Positions 2,170-55,312 of a stretch of 64,000 nucleotides of DNA are shown one piece after another. The notes beneath the pieces were generated by a model. The model had not been told where the DNA came from and ran no database searches. It saw only the letters and a program-made list of their open reading frames with translations. A program made the position numbers and the translations under genes. The number at the start of each line of letters is the position of its first letter. Position 1 is the first letter of the stretch. Source of the stretch: Streptomyces sp. ICBB 8177 (GTDB taxonomy: Bacteria; Actinomycetota; Actinomycetes; Streptomycetales; Streptomycetaceae); the NCBI RefSeq assembly GCF_003144095.1, contig NZ_NSKH01000023.1:1-64000 (forward strand), in the 5' to 3' direction.

Positions 2170-4719
2170 ATGGCACGCGGCACCCTGCGCATCTACCTCG
2201 GGTCGGCACCCGGCGTCGGCAAGACCTATGCCATGCTCGCCGAGGCGCACCGCAGGCTGGAGCGCGGCACGGACGTCGTCGTGGGCCTCGTCGAGCACCA
2301 CTCCCGGCAGCGCACCGAGGTCATGCTGCACGGCCTTGAGGTCGTGCCCCGCAAGGAGCTGGAGTACCGGGGCACGACGTTCACCGAGATGGACGTGGAC
2401 ACCGTGCTGGCCCGTGCCCCCGAGGTCGCCCTGGTGGACGAGCTCGCCCACACCAACGTCCCCGGCAGCCGCAACGCCAAGCGCTGGCAGGACGTCGAGG
2501 AACTGCTCGCCGCGGGCGTCGACGTCGTCTCCACCGTCAACATCCAGCACCTGGAGTCACTCGGCGACGTCGTCGAGTCGATCACCGGCATCCGCCAGCG
2601 CGAGACCGTCCCCGACGAGGTGGTCCGCAGGGCCGACCAGATCGAGCTGGTCGACATGTCGCCGCAGGCACTGCGCCGCCGCATGGCGCACGGCAACATC
2701 TACACCCCCGACAAGGTCGACGCCGCGCTGTCCAACTACTTCCGCCCCGGCAACCTCACCGCGCTGCGCGAGCTGGCGCTGCTGTGGGTGGCCGACCGGG
2801 TGGACGAGTACCTCCAGCAGTACCGCGCCGAGCACCGCATCTCCTCCACCTGGCAGGCCCGCGAGCGCATCGTCGTCGGCCTCACCGGCGGCCCCGAGGG
2901 CTCCACCCTGATCCGCCGCGCCGCCCGCATGGCCGCCAAGGGCTCCGGCAGCGAGATCCTCGCCGTCTACGTGGCCCGCAGCGACGGCCTGACCGCGGGC
3001 TCCCCCAAGGAGCTGGCCGTCCAGCGCACCCTCGTCGAGGACCTCGGCGGATCGTTCCACCACGTCATGGGCGACGACATCCCGACCGCGCTGCTGGAGT
3101 TCGCCCGCGGCGTCAACGCCACCCAGATCGTGCTGGGCAGCTCCCGGCGCAAGGCCTGGCAGTACGTCTTCGGCCCCGGCGTCGGCGCCACGGTCGCCCG
3201 CGAGTCGGGCGACATCGACGTGCACATCGTCACCCACGAGGAGGCCGCCAAGGGACGCGGCCTGCCGGTCGCCCGCGGCGCCCGCCTGGGCCGGGCGCGC
3301 ATCCTGCTGGGCTGGCTGGTCGGCTGCGGCGGCCCGGCCCTGCTGACGCTGCTGCTCACCCAGCTGCTGCCGGGCCTCGGACTCGCCAACGACATGCTGC
3401 TGGTGCTGACCATGACGGTCGCGGCGGCGCTGCTGGGCGGCATGATCCCGGCGCTGGCCTCGGCGGCCGTCGGATCGCTGCTGCTCAACTACTTCTTCGC
3501 GCCCCCGCTGCACCGCTGGACCATCTCCGACCCGCACAACATCGTCGCCATCGCCGTCTTCCTCGCCGTCGCGGTGTCCGTCGCCTCCGTGGTCGACCTC
3601 GCCGCCCGCCGCACCCACCAGGCCGCCCGGCTGCGCGCCGAGGCCGAGATCCTCTCGCTGCTCGCCGGAAGCGTGCTGCGCGGCGAGTCGTCGCTGGACG
3701 CCCTGCTGGAACGGGTCCGCGAGACCTTCGCCATGGAGTCGGTGACGCTGCTGGAACGCGACGAGGAGTTCGCCCCCTGGACGTGCGCGGCGAGCGTCGG
3801 CAACCGGCCGTGCGCCCGGCCCGACGACGCCGACGTCGAGGTCCCGGCCGGCGACCGCATGGCGCTGGCGCTCACCGGCCGCGTCCTGCCCGCCGAGGAC
3901 CGCCGCCTGCTGTCCGCCTTCGCCGCCCAGGCCGCCGTCATCCTCGACCGGCAACGGCTGCTGGGCGAGGCGGAACGCGCCCGCGAGCTGGCCGAGGGCA
4001 ACCGCATCCGCACCGCACTGCTGGCCGCCGTCTCCCACGACCTGCGCACCCCGCTCGCCGCCATCAAGGCCGCCGTCTCCTCGCTGCGCGCCGACGACGT
4101 CTCCTGGTCGCCGCAGGACGAGGCCGACCTGCTGGAGGGCATCGAGGACGGCGCCGACAAGCTCGACCACCTCGTCGGCAACCTGCTGGACATGTCCCGC
4201 CTCCAGACCGGCACCGTCGCCCCGCTCATGCAGGACGTCGACCTGGACGAGGTCGTGCCGATGGCGCTGGGCGGCGTGCCGCCGGACGCCGTCACCCTCG
4301 ACATCCCCGAGACGCTGCCGATGATCCACGCCGACCCCGGCCTACTGGAGCGGGTCGTCGCCAACGTGGTGGAGAACGCCGTGAAGTACAGCCCCGCCGG
4401 CCGGCGCGTGCTGATCGCGGCCAGCGCGCTGCACGGCCGGGTCGAGGTGCGCATCGCCGACCGGGGGCCCGGCGTGCCCGAGGCGGGCAAGGACCGCATC
4501 TTCGAGCCGTTCCAGCGCTACGGCGACGCTCCGCGCGGCGCCGGGGTCGGCCTCGGACTCGCCGTGGCCCGCGGCTTCACCGAGGCGATGGGCGGCACGC
4601 TGGTCGCCGACGACACCCCGGGCGGCGGCCTGACCATGGTCCTCACGCTGCGCGCCGCCGCGCCCCGCACGGACGTGCCCGCCGGTGCGGCCGGCCCCGC
4701 CACGGAGGTCGCCTCATGA
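2170..4719 (+). CDS. kdpD: Sensor histidine kinase KdpD
   Basis: The membrane sensor kinase of the Kdp system, 849 residues, which senses potassium limitation or turgor and phosphorylates KdpE. Domains in order: KdpD N-terminal ATP-binding domain with Walker A motif GSAPGVGKTY (residues about 11-20); a universal-stress-like domain (about 230-370); four closely spaced membrane helices (about 380-490); a GAF-like region; a dimerisation domain with the phospho-acceptor in SHDLRTP (His about 623); and an ATPase domain with N box VVENAVKYSP, G1 DRGPGVP and G2 GVGLGLAVA. The length is typical. The ATGA stop/start overlap with kdpE shows translational coupling. Confidence 0.97.
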   Translation: MARGTLRIYLGSAPGVGKTYAMLAEAHRRLERGTDVVVGLVEHHSRQRTEVMLHGLEVVPRKELEYRGTTFTEMDVDTVLARAPEVALVDELAHTNVPGSRNAKRWQDVEELLAAGVDVVSTVNIQHLESLGDVVESITGIRQRETVPDEVVRRADQIELVDMSPQALRRRMAHGNIYTPDKVDAALSNYFRPGNLTALRELALLWVADRVDEYLQQYRAEHRISSTWQARERIVVGLTGGPEGSTLIRRAARMAAKGSGSEILAVYVARSDGLTAGSPKELAVQRTLVEDLGGSFHHVMGDDIPTALLEFARGVNATQIVLGSSRRKAWQYVFGPGVGATVARESGDIDVHIVTHEEAAKGRGLPVARGARLGRARILLGWLVGCGGPALLTLLLTQLLPGLGLANDMLLVLTMTVAAALLGGMIPALASAAVGSLLLNYFFAPPLHRWTISDPHNIVAIAVFLAVAVSVASVVDLAARRTHQAARLRAEAEILSLLAGSVLRGESSLDALLERVRETFAMESVTLLERDEEFAPWTCAASVGNRPCARPDDADVEVPAGDRMALALTGRVLPAEDRRLLSAFAAQAAVILDRQRLLGEAERARELAEGNRIRTALLAAVSHDLRTPLAAIKAAVSSLRADDVSWSPQDEADLLEGIEDGADKLDHLVGNLLDMSRLQTGTVAPLMQDVDLDEVVPMALGGVPPDAVTLDIPETLPMIHADPGLLERVVANVVENAVKYSPAGRRVLIAASALHGRVEVRIADRGPGVPEAGKDRIFEPFQRYGDAPRGAGVGLGLAVARGFTEAMGGTLVADDTPGGGLTMVLTLRAAAPRTDVPAGAAGPATEVAS

Positions 4720-31950: not shown

Positions 31951-32012
31951 GCGGGTCAGGGCAGGGTGAGGACGGGCGGGCGCGGGTCAGGGCAGGGTGA
32001 GGACGCGGGGGC
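31951..32012. repeat. 31-bp tandem duplication covering the 3' end of map
   Basis: Two adjacent copies of 31 bases (31951-31981 and 31982-32012) share the first 24 bases exactly (GCGGGTCAGGGCAGGGTGAG and four more). The inner copy contains the last codons and stop of map (VLTLP-stop on the minus strand) and the outer copy repeats them as non-coding DNA. Confidence 0.85.
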
Positions 32013-32754
32013 CTTCCTCGGTGACGGCGATGGTGTGCTCGATGTGGGCGGCCCGGCTGCCGTCGGTCGTGCGCAAGGTCCAACCGTCCACGTCCGTGCG
32101 GTACTTGTCGCGTCCTCCGGCCATCAGCATGGGCTCGATGGCGAGCGCGAGACCGTGGCGCAGGGGGAAGCCCCGGCCGGGGCGGCCGCGGTTGGGGACG
32201 TGGGGGTCCTCGTGCATGTGGCGGCCGATCCCGTGGCCGCCGAAGTCGGACGGCATGCCGCAGGCCGCCTCGCGGGCGACCGCGTCGATGGCGTGCGAGA
32301 TGTCGCCGACGCGGTGGCCGACGGTGGCCGCGGCGATGCCCGCGTCCAGGGCCCGCTGGGTGGCGGCGATGAGTTCGAGGTCGGCGGGGCGCGGGGTGCC
32401 GACGGTGAAGCTGATCGCCGCGTCGCCGGTCCAGCCGTCGAGTTCGGCTCCGCAGTCGACGCTGACCAGGTCGCCGTCGCGCAGACGGTAGTCGTCCGGG
32501 ATGCCGTGCGCGACGGCGTCGTTGACCGAGGCGCAGATCACGCCGGGGAAGGGGGTCGGCGCGAAGGAGGGCCGGTAGCCCAGGAACGGCGAGCGTGCGC
32601 CGGCGTCGTCCAGGACGGCGCGGGCGGCCGCGTCCAGCTCGCGCAGGCGGGTGCCCACGGCAGCCGCCGCGCGGGCCGCCGCGAGCGCGTTGGCCACGAC
32701 CCGCCCGGCCTCGCGCATCGCCTCCAGTGCCATGTCGGTCTTGATCTCCACCAT
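31987..32754 (-). CDS. map: Type I methionyl aminopeptidase
   Basis: Removes the initiator methionine from nascent proteins; a 255-residue pita-bread-fold metalloenzyme. The five metal ligands are readable: two Asp in VSVDCGAELDGWTGDAA, His in GHGIGRHMHEDP, Glu in AIEPM and Glu in IEHTI. The substrate-site His is in VAHGIPDD. The start at ATG 32754 has GAGGAG upstream. Streptomycetes usually carry more than one map; this one is divergent from a small XRE regulator across a strong palindrome and so looks like a regulated paralogue, not the ribosomal-operon copy. Its 3' end is duplicated immediately downstream. Confidence 0.94.
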   Translation of the reverse strand: MVEIKTDMALEAMREAGRVVANALAAARAAAAVGTRLRELDAAARAVLDDAGARSPFLGYRPSFAPTPFPGVICASVNDAVAHGIPDDYRLRDGDLVSVDCGAELDGWTGDAAISFTVGTPRPADLELIAATQRALDAGIAAATVGHRVGDISHAIDAVAREAACGMPSDFGGHGIGRHMHEDPHVPNRGRPGRGFPLRHGLALAIEPMLMAGGRDKYRTDVDGWTLRTTDGSRAAHIEHTIAVTEEGPRVLTLP

Positions 32755-32789
32755 GTGCGTGACTCCTCGCGGCGCGGGCGCTGTGCCCA

Positions 32790-32811
32790 ATACTTATACC
32801 GGTATTAGTAT
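32790..32811. promoter_or_regulatory. 22-bp near-perfect palindrome, operator between map and XRE gene
   Basis: ATACTTATACC (32790-32800) is followed at once by GGTATTAGTAT (32801-32811); 10 of 11 positions are complementary. It is strikingly AT-rich for this genome, lies 7 bases before the XRE start and 35 bases before the map start, and would overlap both promoters. The adjacent XRE protein is the obvious candidate binder. Confidence 0.8.
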
Positions 32812-32818
32812 CACGGTC

Positions 32819-33133
32819 ATGGTGAGAGTTCCTTTGAGCCCGTGGGAGCGGCTACGCGGCGAGCGCTTCGGCGCCCTGATCCGCCAGGCCCGGGGCGAGC
32901 GCAGCATGGTCGAGGTGGCGGCGGCGGCCGGGGTGTCCGCCGAGACCCTCCGCAAGATCGAGACGGGTCGGGCCCCGACCCCGGCCTTCTTCACCGTGGC
33001 GGCCCTCGCGCACGCGCTGGACGTGTCCCTGGACGACCTCGCGGTGGCGTGTGCGGAGGCCTGCGCGGAGGGCGTCGACGCGGCGGAGGGGACGGAAGGG
33101 GCCGGCGGCGGAGGGCGGGCCATGTCGGCGTGA
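32819..33133 (+). CDS. Small XRE-family helix-turn-helix regulator
   Basis: A 104-residue DNA-binding protein. The helix-turn-helix occupies residues 14-75: FGALIRQARGERSMVEVAAA, then AGVSAETLRKIETGR (recognition helix) and TVAALAHALDVSLDDLA. The C-terminal 30 residues are acidic and Gly/Ala-rich. Its ATG at 32819 sits 7 bases after the palindrome, leaving no room for a normal ribosome site, so the transcript may be leaderless or start within the operator. Divergence from map and the shared operator indicate that it controls itself and map. Confidence 0.9.
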   Translation: MVRVPLSPWERLRGERFGALIRQARGERSMVEVAAAAGVSAETLRKIETGRAPTPAFFTVAALAHALDVSLDDLAVACAEACAEGVDAAEGTEGAGGGGRAMSA

Positions 33134-52204: not shown

Positions 52205-52631
52205 CTTCGCTCCGGTGGGCGCGCGAGACGGATGGCCTCCGAGCGGAGGCCGCCCGGCCGCCCCGGCCGCGCCCGCCAGCCTCCGCCGTCAAGGCCGCCG
52301 GCCAAGCCTCGGCCCCCAAGGCCACCGGCCCCAACCTCGGCCGTCAAGGCGGCCACCGGCCGAGCCTCCGCCGTCAAGGCGGTCGGCCGAGCCCTCCGCC
52401 CCACGGCGTCCCCGTGCCCCCGCACAAGCACCATTACCGCCATTCGGGTGCCGCGCCCCCGCTCTGGCCGGATGGCGTGCTGAGGCGGTTGGCCGGGCGC
52501 TGGGTGGGCAAAGAGGGCAGAGGAGTGAGCAGTAAGGGAACAGGTGTTCGTAAAAAGCGTGCGGTTCGCCTCGGATCGTGATGCAGTGGAGTGGTTGCCC
52601 GAGCGAGACCGTCGAAGGAGAGGGTCCGGCA
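52205..52631. other. Gene-free stretch before egtA
   Basis: No gene. The first half holds four tandem units of about 28-30 bases (52285-52400). The second half should contain the egt promoter; an AT-richer patch at 52527-52560 (AGTAAGGGAACAGGTGTTCG) is the best candidate region, but no clear -35/-10 pair is visible. Confidence 0.5.
52285..52400. repeat. 28-30-bp tandem repeat GCCGTCAAGGCSGCC (4 copies)
   Basis: Units begin at about 52285, 52312, 52340 and 52370, each containing CCGTCAAGGC or CCCCAAGGC followed by a GGCC-rich part and CCTCSG. The array is non-coding. Confidence 0.75.
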
Positions 52632-53951
52632 ATGAACGCTTTTCGCCCCATAGGAGAGGCGGAGGCCGAGGCGAGAGCCCACGGCATCTGCTTCAAGAAC
52701 GGCCCGCCGCGCCGCGTCGGCGTCGAGCTGGAGTGGCTCGTCCACGACGCGCGTGACCCCGCCCGTGCCGTCGCGCCGGTCCGGCTCGCCGATGCACACC
52801 GCGACCTGGGGCGACTCCCGCTCGCCTCGCTGCTCACCCAGGAGCCCGGCGGTCAGCTGGAACTGAGTTCCCCGCCGGCCGAGTCGTTGACCTCCTGCGT
52901 GGAGTCGATGACCGCCGACCTCGCGATCGTCCGTGAGGCGTTGCGCGGCCACGAGCTGCGTCTCGCCGGTTTCGGTCACGAGCCGTGGCACCGGCCGCGC
53001 CGTGTGCTCCAACTGCCGCGCTACACCGCCATGGAGGAGTACTTCGACCGGGCCGGACCGATCGGCCGCTCCATGATGTGCAGCACGGCCTCGGTCCAGG
53101 TCTGCCTGGACGCCGGCACCGCGGGTGCCGGGCCCGACGGGTACGCGGCCCGCTGGCGGCTCGCCCATCTGCTCGGCCCGGTGCTGATCGCCGCGTTCGC
53201 CAACTCGCCGCTCAGACGGGGTCGTCCCACCGGCGTCCGCTCCACCCGCCAGGCCGTTTGGACCGCTCTCGACCCCGGTCGCACCACCGCCCCCGAACAC
53301 GCCGACGATCCCAGGGACGCGTGGGCCCGTTTCGCGCTGGGCGCTCCCGTGCTGTGTGTGCGAGCGGAGGAGGGGCAGCCGTGGACGGTGCCGCCGGCCG
53401 GGCTGACGTTCCGCGGGTGGATACGCGGACAGGGTCGGTCGGCGGGGTTGCGGCCGCCGACCGAGGACGACCTCGCCTACCACCTGACCACCCTGTTTCC
53501 GCCGGTCAGGCCGCACGGTCACCTGGAGTTGCGCATGATCGACGCGCAGCCGGGCGACGACGGCTGGATCGTGCCGCTCGCCGTCACCACGGCGCTGCTG
53601 GACGACCCGGTGGCCGCCGAGGCCGCCCACCGCGCGGTGCGGCCGCTGGACCTGCGGCCGTACGAGCGGGCGCCGGGCAATCCGTTGTGGCGCCGGGCGG
53701 CGCGCGGCGGGATGACCGACCCCGCGTTGCGGCTCGCGGCCGACAAGTGCTTCGCCGCCGCGCGCGAGGCGCTGCCCAGGCTCGGTGCCTCGACGGCGAT
53801 ACGTGATGCCGTCGAGGCGTTCGCCGACCGCTACGTCGCAAGGGGCCGATGTCCCGCCGACGATCTGCTCGATCCGTACTCCATCACCACCGCGACCGGC
53901 CGGGTGCCCGCCCGGACGGCCCCGCTCATCGGGAAGGACGGCCGATCATGA
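52632..53951 (+). CDS. egtA: Ergothioneine biosynthesis glutamate-cysteine ligase EgtA
   Basis: Makes gamma-glutamylcysteine, the sulphur donor for ergothioneine; 439 residues. The ATP-grasp-like GCS2 fold shows RVGVELEWLVHD (the E-x-E-W metal/glutamate site), GGQLELSSPPAESL, GFGHEPWHRPRRVLQLPRY, ASVQVCLD and HLELRMIDAQ. I chose the ATG at 52632, which has GAAGGAGAG upstream; an in-frame ATG 54 bases earlier adds unrelated sequence. It is the first gene of an operon in which egtA, egtB, egtC and egtD overlap by 1-4 bases. Confidence 0.95.
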   Translation: MNAFRPIGEAEAEARAHGICFKNGPPRRVGVELEWLVHDARDPARAVAPVRLADAHRDLGRLPLASLLTQEPGGQLELSSPPAESLTSCVESMTADLAIVREALRGHELRLAGFGHEPWHRPRRVLQLPRYTAMEEYFDRAGPIGRSMMCSTASVQVCLDAGTAGAGPDGYAARWRLAHLLGPVLIAAFANSPLRRGRPTGVRSTRQAVWTALDPGRTTAPEHADDPRDAWARFALGAPVLCVRAEEGQPWTVPPAGLTFRGWIRGQGRSAGLRPPTEDDLAYHLTTLFPPVRPHGHLELRMIDAQPGDDGWIVPLAVTTALLDDPVAAEAAHRAVRPLDLRPYERAPGNPLWRRAARGGMTDPALRLAADKCFAAAREALPRLGASTAIRDAVEAFADRYVARGRCPADDLLDPYSITTATGRVPARTAPLIGKDGRS

Positions 53952-55312
53952 CCGACACCGACGCCGCCCCGCCGGCCTCGGAGGCCGCCGGCGGCACCGA
54001 CCCCGAGGTGCTCAGGCGCCGGGCCCTCGACGTCCTGGACGGCGCACGCCACCGCACGCACCACCTGACGACCTGCGTCGACGACCAGGACCTGGTCGCT
54101 CAGCACTCGCCGCTGATGTCGCCGCTGGTGTGGGACCTGGCGCACATCGCCAACCAGGAGGAGCTGTGGCTGCTGCGCGGGGTCGGCGGAAGGGAGGCGA
54201 TACGGCCGGACATCGACCCCATCTACGACGCGTTCGAGCACCCTCGTTCCGAGCGGCCGACGCTGCCGCTGCTGTCGCCCGAGGAGGCACGCGGATACGC
54301 GTCAGAGGTGCGCGGCAGGGTGTTCGACCTGCTGGAGACGACCGCGTTGCGCGGAGACCGGCTGGTCGAGGCGGGCTTCGCGTTCGGCATGATCGCGCAG
54401 CACGAGCAGCAGCACGACGAGACGATGCTGATCACCCACCAACTGCGGCGCGGACCGGCGGCGTTGACCGCGCCCGAACCGCCGCCGGCGCCCGCCGATG
54501 CCGCGTTGCTGCCGCGTGAGGTGCTGATCCCGGGCGGCCCGTTCACCATGGGCACCTCCACCGAGCCGTGGGCGCTGGACAACGAGCGCCCGGCCCACCA
54601 GGTGGACGTGGCGCCGTACTTCCTGGACACCACGCCGGTCACCTGCGGCGACTACCAGCGGTTCATCGCCGACGGCGGCTACCGCGACCGGCGCTGGTGG
54701 GCGCCGGAGGGCTGGGACATGGTGCGGCGCCACGACCTGGAGGCGCCGCTGTTCTGGAGCGGCGACGGGCAGCGGTGGCTGCGGCGCAGGTTCGGCGAGG
54801 TCGAGCCGGTGCCCGAGGGGGAGCCGGTGCTGCACGTCAGCTGGTACGAGGCCGACGCCTACGCCCGCTGGGCGGGAAGGCGGTTGCCGACCGAGGCGGA
54901 GTGGGAGAAGGCCGCCCGGCACGACCCGGTCACCGGCCGGTCCCGCCGCTACCCCTGGGGCGACGCCGACCCGACCCCCGAGCGCGCCAACCTCGGCCAG
55001 CGCCACCTGCGCCCCGCCCCGGCAGGCAGCTTTCCGCAGGGCGCCTCGCCGTACGGTGTGCGGCAGTTGATCGGCGACGTGTGGGAGTGGACGGCGAGCG
55101 ACTTCCGCCCGTACCCGGGCTTCGAGCCGTTCCCGTACCGGGAGTACTCGGAGGTGTTCTTCGGACCCGAGTACAAGGTGCTGCGCGGCGGGGCGTTCTC
55201 GGTGGACCCGGTCGCCTGCCGGGGCACCTTCCGCAACTGGGACTATCCGGTACGCCGCCAGATATTCGCCGGCTTCCGCACCGCGCGCGACGCCCGCCCC
55301 GAGGAAGCCTGA
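53948..55312 (+). CDS. egtB: Ergothioneine biosynthesis sulfoxide synthase EgtB
   Basis: Non-haem iron enzyme that joins gamma-glutamylcysteine (or cysteine) to hercynine with O2 to give the sulfoxide; 454 residues. The N-terminal DinB-like domain carries the iron ligands in WDLAHIANQEE and in the HxxxHxE motif HEQQHDET. The C-terminal formylglycine-generating-enzyme-like (FGE-sulfatase) domain runs from VLIPGGPFTMG through WEKAARHDP, YPWGDADP, GDVWEWTASDF and LRGGAFSV to GFRTARD. It overlaps egtA by ATGA and abuts egtC. Confidence 0.97.
   Translation: MTDTDAAPPASEAAGGTDPEVLRRRALDVLDGARHRTHHLTTCVDDQDLVAQHSPLMSPLVWDLAHIANQEELWLLRGVGGREAIRPDIDPIYDAFEHPRSERPTLPLLSPEEARGYASEVRGRVFDLLETTALRGDRLVEAGFAFGMIAQHEQQHDETMLITHQLRRGPAALTAPEPPPAPADAALLPREVLIPGGPFTMGTSTEPWALDNERPAHQVDVAPYFLDTTPVTCGDYQRFIADGGYRDRRWWAPEGWDMVRRHDLEAPLFWSGDGQRWLRRRFGEVEPVPEGEPVLHVSWYEADAYARWAGRRLPTEAEWEKAARHDPVTGRSRRYPWGDADPTPERANLGQRHLRPAPAGSFPQGASPYGVRQLIGDVWEWTASDFRPYPGFEPFPYREYSEVFFGPEYKVLRGGAFSVDPVACRGTFRNWDYPVRRQIFAGFRTARDARPEEA

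Follow-up and report, generated by a model that had tools for sequence, protein, structure and literature searches.

The window analyzed here, a 64,000-nt stretch of the Streptomyces sp. ICBB 8177 genome, carries two divergent genes with a 64-bp gap between them. On the minus strand, map (31987–32754; 255 aa, ATG at 32754, stop at 31987) encodes a predicted accessory type I methionine aminopeptidase (MetAP), and on the plus strand, xre (32819–33133; 104 aa, ATG at 32819) encodes an XRE regulator consisting of a helix-turn-helix (HTH) domain only. The MetAP scored 244.3 bits against the curated model TIGR00500 (cut-off 171.35), and the XRE protein scored 43.8 bits against HTH_31 (cut-off 27) and 38.4 bits against HTH_3 (cut-off 23). 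A 22-bp palindrome, ATACTTATACCGGTATTAGTAT, occupies positions 32790–32811 of the gap; 20 of its 22 positions are self-complementary, its AT content is 73%, and its last base lies 7 nt before the XRE ATG. An earlier note on this DNA had described a MetAP gene and an XRE gene sharing an AT-rich, nearly perfect palindrome 7 bases before the XRE start, and this description was confirmed, with the MetAP gene complete and both proteins above the curated cut-offs. The nearest neighbours of the pair encode GNAT, DUF6624, and TetR proteins. Elsewhere in the window (52578–55312), a gene for a GCS2 glutamate-cysteine ligase family protein is followed by one for an FGE-sulfatase and DinB_2 protein, which we take to resemble an ergothioneine-type gene pair.

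The earlier note proposed a survey of the pair and its palindrome, and both were found to be conserved. A search of genome contigs gave at least 439 confirmed XRE matches, of which 80 relatives were kept; a divergent map was found in 77 of them, and in 71 the stretch of up to 160 bp preceding XRE contained TACCGGTA. The three exceptions were L016, in which the XRE match is overlapped by a map piece and the XRE start is uncertain, L030, which has only a map remnant beside XRE, and L029, in which XRE and an identical palindrome copy are kept (2800–3010) with no map found in the 6.2-kb locus. In L035, map is reduced to residues 163–255. Such losses and truncations in some relatives make map an accessory gene. 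The named and unnamed locus sets overlap, as L123 and L015 are one and the same DNA. One pair, 87–89% identical to that of the window, was found in a 4.9-kb contig of an Acidimicrobiales metagenome-assembled genome, where mis-binning is possible.

In a phylum sample of 396 genomes spread evenly, XRE was detected at E 1e-8 in 24, one of which (G036) was excluded for a weak match with an unlike N-terminus. By coordinates, map was directly adjacent in 22 of the remaining 23 genomes, the exception being G246. A second XRE, with no map inside 1.5 kb, was found in both G161 and G334; the one in G334 (L122) scores 73 bits and starts with MARRR. In the host family, XRE was present at E 1e-20 in 134 of 150 genomes, a count of XRE presence and not of adjacency; 116 of these XREs score at least 97 bits and 18 score 79–93 bits. 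The latter range includes the map-adjacent XREs of G038, G361, and G050 and is close to the 73 bits of L122, so some of the 18 may not be pair-type. Plasmid records with the pair include Rhodococcus ruber, Kitasatospora, Streptomyces, and Tsukamurella. Plasmid records matching the MetAP at E 1e-5 also include 95 from Pantoea and 68 from Sinorhizobium, which could be MetAPs or M24 peptidases of another kind. A phage origin was rejected: 30 phage records had a MetAP match, all below 60% identity and none covering 80% of the query, as judged from the best 10 of the 30. None of the literature matches listed described this map-XRE pair, which does not prove that no description exists.

The earlier note treated map as a paralogue and named a single genomic copy as a refutation; this does not apply, as map is not the sole copy. 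PF00557 was found at eight places in the genome, and the window MetAP as a query recovered two full-length genes, at C11:1766995 (HKA, 50% identity) and C11:1245428 (HKB, 38% identity), plus two weaker matches. By similarity, the two full-length genes encode type I MetAPs. HKA adjoins ORFs read by eye as secY and adk, with rpsM downstream, which places it in a ribosomal-protein region, and HKB is extended at its N-terminus in the manner of MetAP1c.

All five metal ligands of the window MetAP are kept (D100, D111, H174, E207, and E239, corresponding to E. coli D97, D108, H171, E204, and E235), and the equivalents of E. coli H79, H178, C70, and W221 are unchanged. Judged by the curated-model score and these ligands, map encodes a type I MetAP with predicted activity. 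An alignment of 75 pair rows including the window, from which map frames under 240 aa (L017, L035, and L085) were left out, showed H83, H174, M180, H181, E207, W225, and E239 to be invariant; D100 and D111 were present in 74 rows and C74 in 73. M180 takes the position of E. coli F177, which is also Met in HKA and is Phe in HKB and E. coli. The titles of solved structures include the human F309M and F309L mutants crystallized with ovalicin, F309 being presumably the human residue at the F177 position, so the Met does not indicate insensitivity to fumagillin or ovalicin. The unchanged metal ligands and H79 and H178 equivalents speak against the resistance idea of the earlier note. The only feature bearing on insensitivity was a six-residue insertion (GYRPSFAPTPFPGVIC in the window enzyme) in the YHGY loop between the positions of E. 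coli Y62 and Y65, an insertion found in 74 of the 75 pair rows (L074 is frame-shifted there). A pocket-loop role is described in PMC2238726, and a bengamide-related MetAP position, L154, in PMC9228497. The AlphaFold model of map, with a mean pLDDT of 90.1 and only 65–68 for residues 171–190, matched the M. abscessus MetAP 3tav (TM 0.94, 52% identity).

The insertion was also present in 19/19 unregulated relatives examined, defined as having no operator-like site of at least 8 matches (see below) within 120 bp upstream and no XRE match beside them in the 396-genome search, and it was therefore ruled out as a feature that tells regulated or resistant copies apart. In a 63-row tree, regulated and unregulated insert-type MetAPs together formed one side of a branch (100/97), within which the two labels interleave and at least two changes of the regulated label are forced. 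The insertion is thus a trait of the clade and not a mark of regulation. TIGR00500 was run on 13 genomes, nine of which hold one of the unregulated insert-type copies of the tree, and each of the 13 had two or three MetAP-I proteins over the cut-off. In family f8, the HKA-like MetAPs L182, L183, L184, and L188 have a divergent pocket loop (GYRHT) and a long branch; the insert-type copy of this family is unregulated in most cases, and a role swap with the HKA-like copy is possible.

As a self-evident operator, the palindrome was rejected on self-complementarity alone: the GC-rich window contains four 22-mers with at least 20/22 self-complementary positions, and 20 first-order Markov controls averaged 3.7. 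Palindromes of 20/22 with at least 15 A/T of 22 did not occur in the 20 controls. As symmetry was no better than chance, the reality of the putative operator depends on conservation. The palindrome is real, but the conserved loci pointed to a better unit than a 22-bp operator, namely two abutting 14-mers related to GGTATN4ATACC. Site 1, CCAATACTTATACC (reverse GGTATAAGTATTGG; 32787–32800), matches 7 of the 10 defined positions, and an identical or similar sequence occurs in many close relatives; site 2, GGTATTAGTATCAC (32801–32814), matches 8 of 10. The palindrome of the window is the junction of CCAATACTTATACC and GGTATTAGTATCAC.

Of the 75 close gaps shorter than 400 bp, 69 contained a site matching at least 8/10 positions vs a shuffled mean of 1.2, as did 17 of 22 second-set gaps vs a shuffled mean of 0.4, where the shuffles preserved single-base composition only, the consensus was derived from the very loci later scored with it, and the second set takes in some close relatives and the duplicate L123. 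No such site was present in 6/75 close and 5/22 second-set gaps. Distant pairs, with about 53% MetAP identity, also show GGTATN4ATACC sites, and 12 perfect sites are spread over 8 of the 22 second-set gaps. Two sites lie 21–31 bp apart, start to start, in L109, L111, L115, L116, and L117, and several loci (L063, L064, L078, and L086) have three tandem sites. Within the genome, the pattern ATACNNATACCGGTATNNGTAT with at most three mismatches occurred at a single place, the window palindrome itself with 0 mismatches; its reversed control likewise gave one place within this mismatch limit. A wider regulon was rejected for the palindrome pattern on this basis, as one genome place gives no sign of it.

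The two sites overlap candidate promoter elements on both strands. Site 1 overlaps a candidate map –10, TATAAG (32793–32798, minus strand), read from the sequence and without a consensus –35; a Shine-Dalgarno-like GAGGAG (32763–32768, minus strand) lies 8 nt before the map ATG. Site 2 overlaps the XRE –10, TAGTAT (32806–32811, plus strand), located 7 nt before the ATG. A TANNNT motif was found 7 nt before the XRE ATG in 63 of 80 relatives and at 6–8 nt in 78 of 80 (background 0.0005 per position), and an SD-like 4-mer was found in 5/80 XRE genes vs 59/74 pair maps; the XRE promoter therefore looks leaderless. Ten of the 74 maps were also leaderless-looking. The view that the palindrome covers both promoter regions stood insofar as the candidate –10 elements are overlapped, but the promoter scan found no –35/–10 pair in the 64-bp gap.

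In several rearranged loci, the putative operator sites stay with map. Six loci (L022, L025, L028, L031, L054, and L069) have the double site 19–37 nt from map, and the XRE start is 38–745 nt off. Among them, L022, L028, and L031 have XRE 222–745 nt from the double site with its own TAGACT –10 and keep a site-map distance of 19–34 nt. The genes are co-directional in L126 (Tsukamurella), where a perfect GGTATTTTAATACC is found directly before the map ATG and the 101 bp preceding xre gave no site of at least 7 matches. In G246, XRE and the insert-type map are on separate contigs (C42 and C7); site-like ACCGGTAT sequences lie upstream of this map, AATACCGGTAT and GGCCGGTATAG are still present, and no XRE was found within the 4-kb stretch examined (L189, C7:66000–70000). 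The XRE found in G246 is of the other sequence type. The sites adjoin XRE and are 64–236 nt from map in L027, L041, L050, L063, L078, and L081, so that map would need a long leader or its start is mis-called. On the plasmid of Streptomyces sp. NBC_01768 (L128, about 4001–4183), XRE is seemingly frame-broken and unannotated, and the adjacent map is intact. The XRE matches in plasmid records H37, H39, and H40 likewise begin at residue 10.

The XRE protein consists of an N-terminal arm, MVRVPLSP, the HTH domain, and a C-terminal tail, AMSA, as supported by HTH_31/HTH_3, the nearest solved structure (2ofy), and conservation. In a set of 81 XREs picked by similarity, which favours conservation throughout, M1-V2-R3 was found in 80, P5 in 80, L6 in 81, and P8 in 79. 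V2 was also present in 24 further pair-like relatives (one being the duplicate L123) and in all four plasmid XREs translated intact; L120 and L122, which are not pair-like, do not have it. After a variable linker, the C-terminus reads [LMAV][STA]A in 58/81 XREs vs 1/44 predicted ORFs of the window, where the 58 are not independent as the XREs are homologous; 15 of the 81 do not end in Ala. According to PMC7142297, the Streptomyces protein sigma-AntA requires a C-terminal Ala-Ala for degradation by ClpXP. Most XREs end in Ser-Ala or Thr-Ala and not Ala-Ala, so the degron-like tail is considered a lead. Together, the near-invariant Met-Val-Arg start and this tail suggest that XRE may be controlled by processing or proteolysis. 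No ligand or sensor domain was recognized in Pfam and curated-model scans, and the closest paralogue in the genome has 42% identity over 62 residues, none being close. Structure searches matched 2ofy best, followed by an M. smegmatis XRE, ClgR, and C proteins. A HipB-like type II antitoxin (Y4mF/HipB model, 25.7 bits, cut-off 71.65) and ClgR (curated model, 21.1 bits, cut-off 170) were rejected as identities of the protein.

The reading we prefer, and hold to be reasonably probable, is that XRE serves as the dedicated repressor of an accessory MetAP isozyme and usually also regulates its own gene, in a divergent module in which two 14-bp sites keep map low as a backup. XRE would bind, presumably as a dimer, to the two adjoining GGTATN4ATACC-like sites and would thereby cover the map –10 and, at the majority of loci, also the leaderless –10 of xre, so that the accessory MetAP is held low. 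Inactivation or depletion of XRE would then allow map expression, and the housekeeping MetAPs would be joined by an isozyme whose pocket loop is modified. The spare MetAP is probably a backup made on demand, and standing in when MetAP capacity runs short would be its simplest role. Gene arrangement and conservation speak for such a dedicated regulator-operator-enzyme module; against it count the six loci whose sites adjoin XRE, the 7 and 8 matches of the window's own sites, the gaps lacking a site of at least 8, and the loci that keep one gene without an intact partner (L029, L030, L035, and L128). Our favoured guess for the switch is XRE turnover via the C-terminal tail. The Met-Val-Arg arm resembles the arm of lambda CI and is a potential MetAP substrate, and XRE could thus sense MetAP capacity via its own N-terminus, the unprocessed protein binding poorly or being degraded. 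If Met removal lagged through an inhibitor, metal shortage, or overload, the spare MetAP would be released until processing recovers; we regard this sensor as quite improbable.

The earlier note had read the locus as an inducible resistance pair, in which a regulated MetAP tolerates a MetAP-directed natural product that switches map on. The pocket-loop insertion, the plasmid-borne copies, and the loss or breakage of map in L029, L030, and L035 are compatible with this, but the insertion is shared with the unregulated relatives, the window enzyme retains its catalytic residues along with the equivalents of C70 and W221, and the F177 position carries Met. The XRE also has no recognized ligand domain and is very widespread, and its frequency in the host family is more in keeping with a general function than with a single rare compound. 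Finally, a Pfam scan of 25 ORFs, the pair among them, showed no polyketide or peptide synthase domain; these ORFs cover 23 of the 44 predicted in the window, and five of them had no Pfam match. We consider inhibitor resistance possible but unlikely, and it is not favoured over the backup role.

More credible than resistance, yet still doubtful, is a specialist isozyme whose modified pocket handles a subset of N-termini in a growth phase or under stress, with developmental or metabolic cues acting via XRE. The distinct clade (100/97) with its altered loop would agree with this, as would the different targets that the B. subtilis authors propose for YflG in PMC1266368, but the confinement of the palindrome pattern to one genome place speaks against it. 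A ligand-free homeostat like the C proteins of restriction-modification (R-M) systems, in which autoregulation sets a low level or a delay after transfer, would fit the tandem sites, the leaderless start, and the plasmid copies, and XRE is structurally similar to C.BclI, C.AhdI, and C.Esp1396I (Z 10–11.5). Several loci, however, lose the XRE-side site and keep the map-side site, and there is no known reason for delaying a MetAP, making this explanation improbable to about the same degree as resistance. An actual R-M C-protein system was rejected, since the GNAT, DUF6624, and TetR neighbours leave no restriction or methylation gene adjacent.

N-terminal Met removal is generally regarded as constitutive. 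If the backup reading is true, these actinomycetes would regulate their MetAP capacity through a conserved repressor devoted to a spare enzyme, the XRE being present in most sampled genomes of the host family and in several other actinomycete families. As MetAP is a drug target, it would also matter that inhibitors could be buffered by an inducible isozyme whose pocket loop differs. The Met-Val arm of XRE offers a direct way to ask whether the repressor reads MetAP activity.

The R-M C proteins are known for tandem operators, autoregulation, and leaderless C genes. XRE shares their small HTH-only fold and differs in that its partner is a MetAP and not an R-M system. The closest solved protein, 2ofy, is a putative XRE regulator of Rhodococcus (phmmer E 7.7e-26 over residues 1–77; Z 13.6, 58% identity) that starts with MVRVPLT as the window XRE does; no function was found for it in the available text of the literature naming it, a simulation study. 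M. tuberculosis MapA and MapB likewise represent several MetAP-I isozymes with partial redundancy in one actinobacterium, although the part of PMC6562599 available mentions no XRE regulator. B. subtilis yflG, as described in PMC1266368, is a second functional MetAP gene that is weakly expressed, with YvoA as a possible weak repressor, and thus offers a likeness to a regulated second MetAP with a possible transcriptional repressor. In contrast to YvoA, which is tied to N-acetylglucosamine metabolism, the putative repressor here is an HTH-only XRE that is divergent from map and shares its operator.
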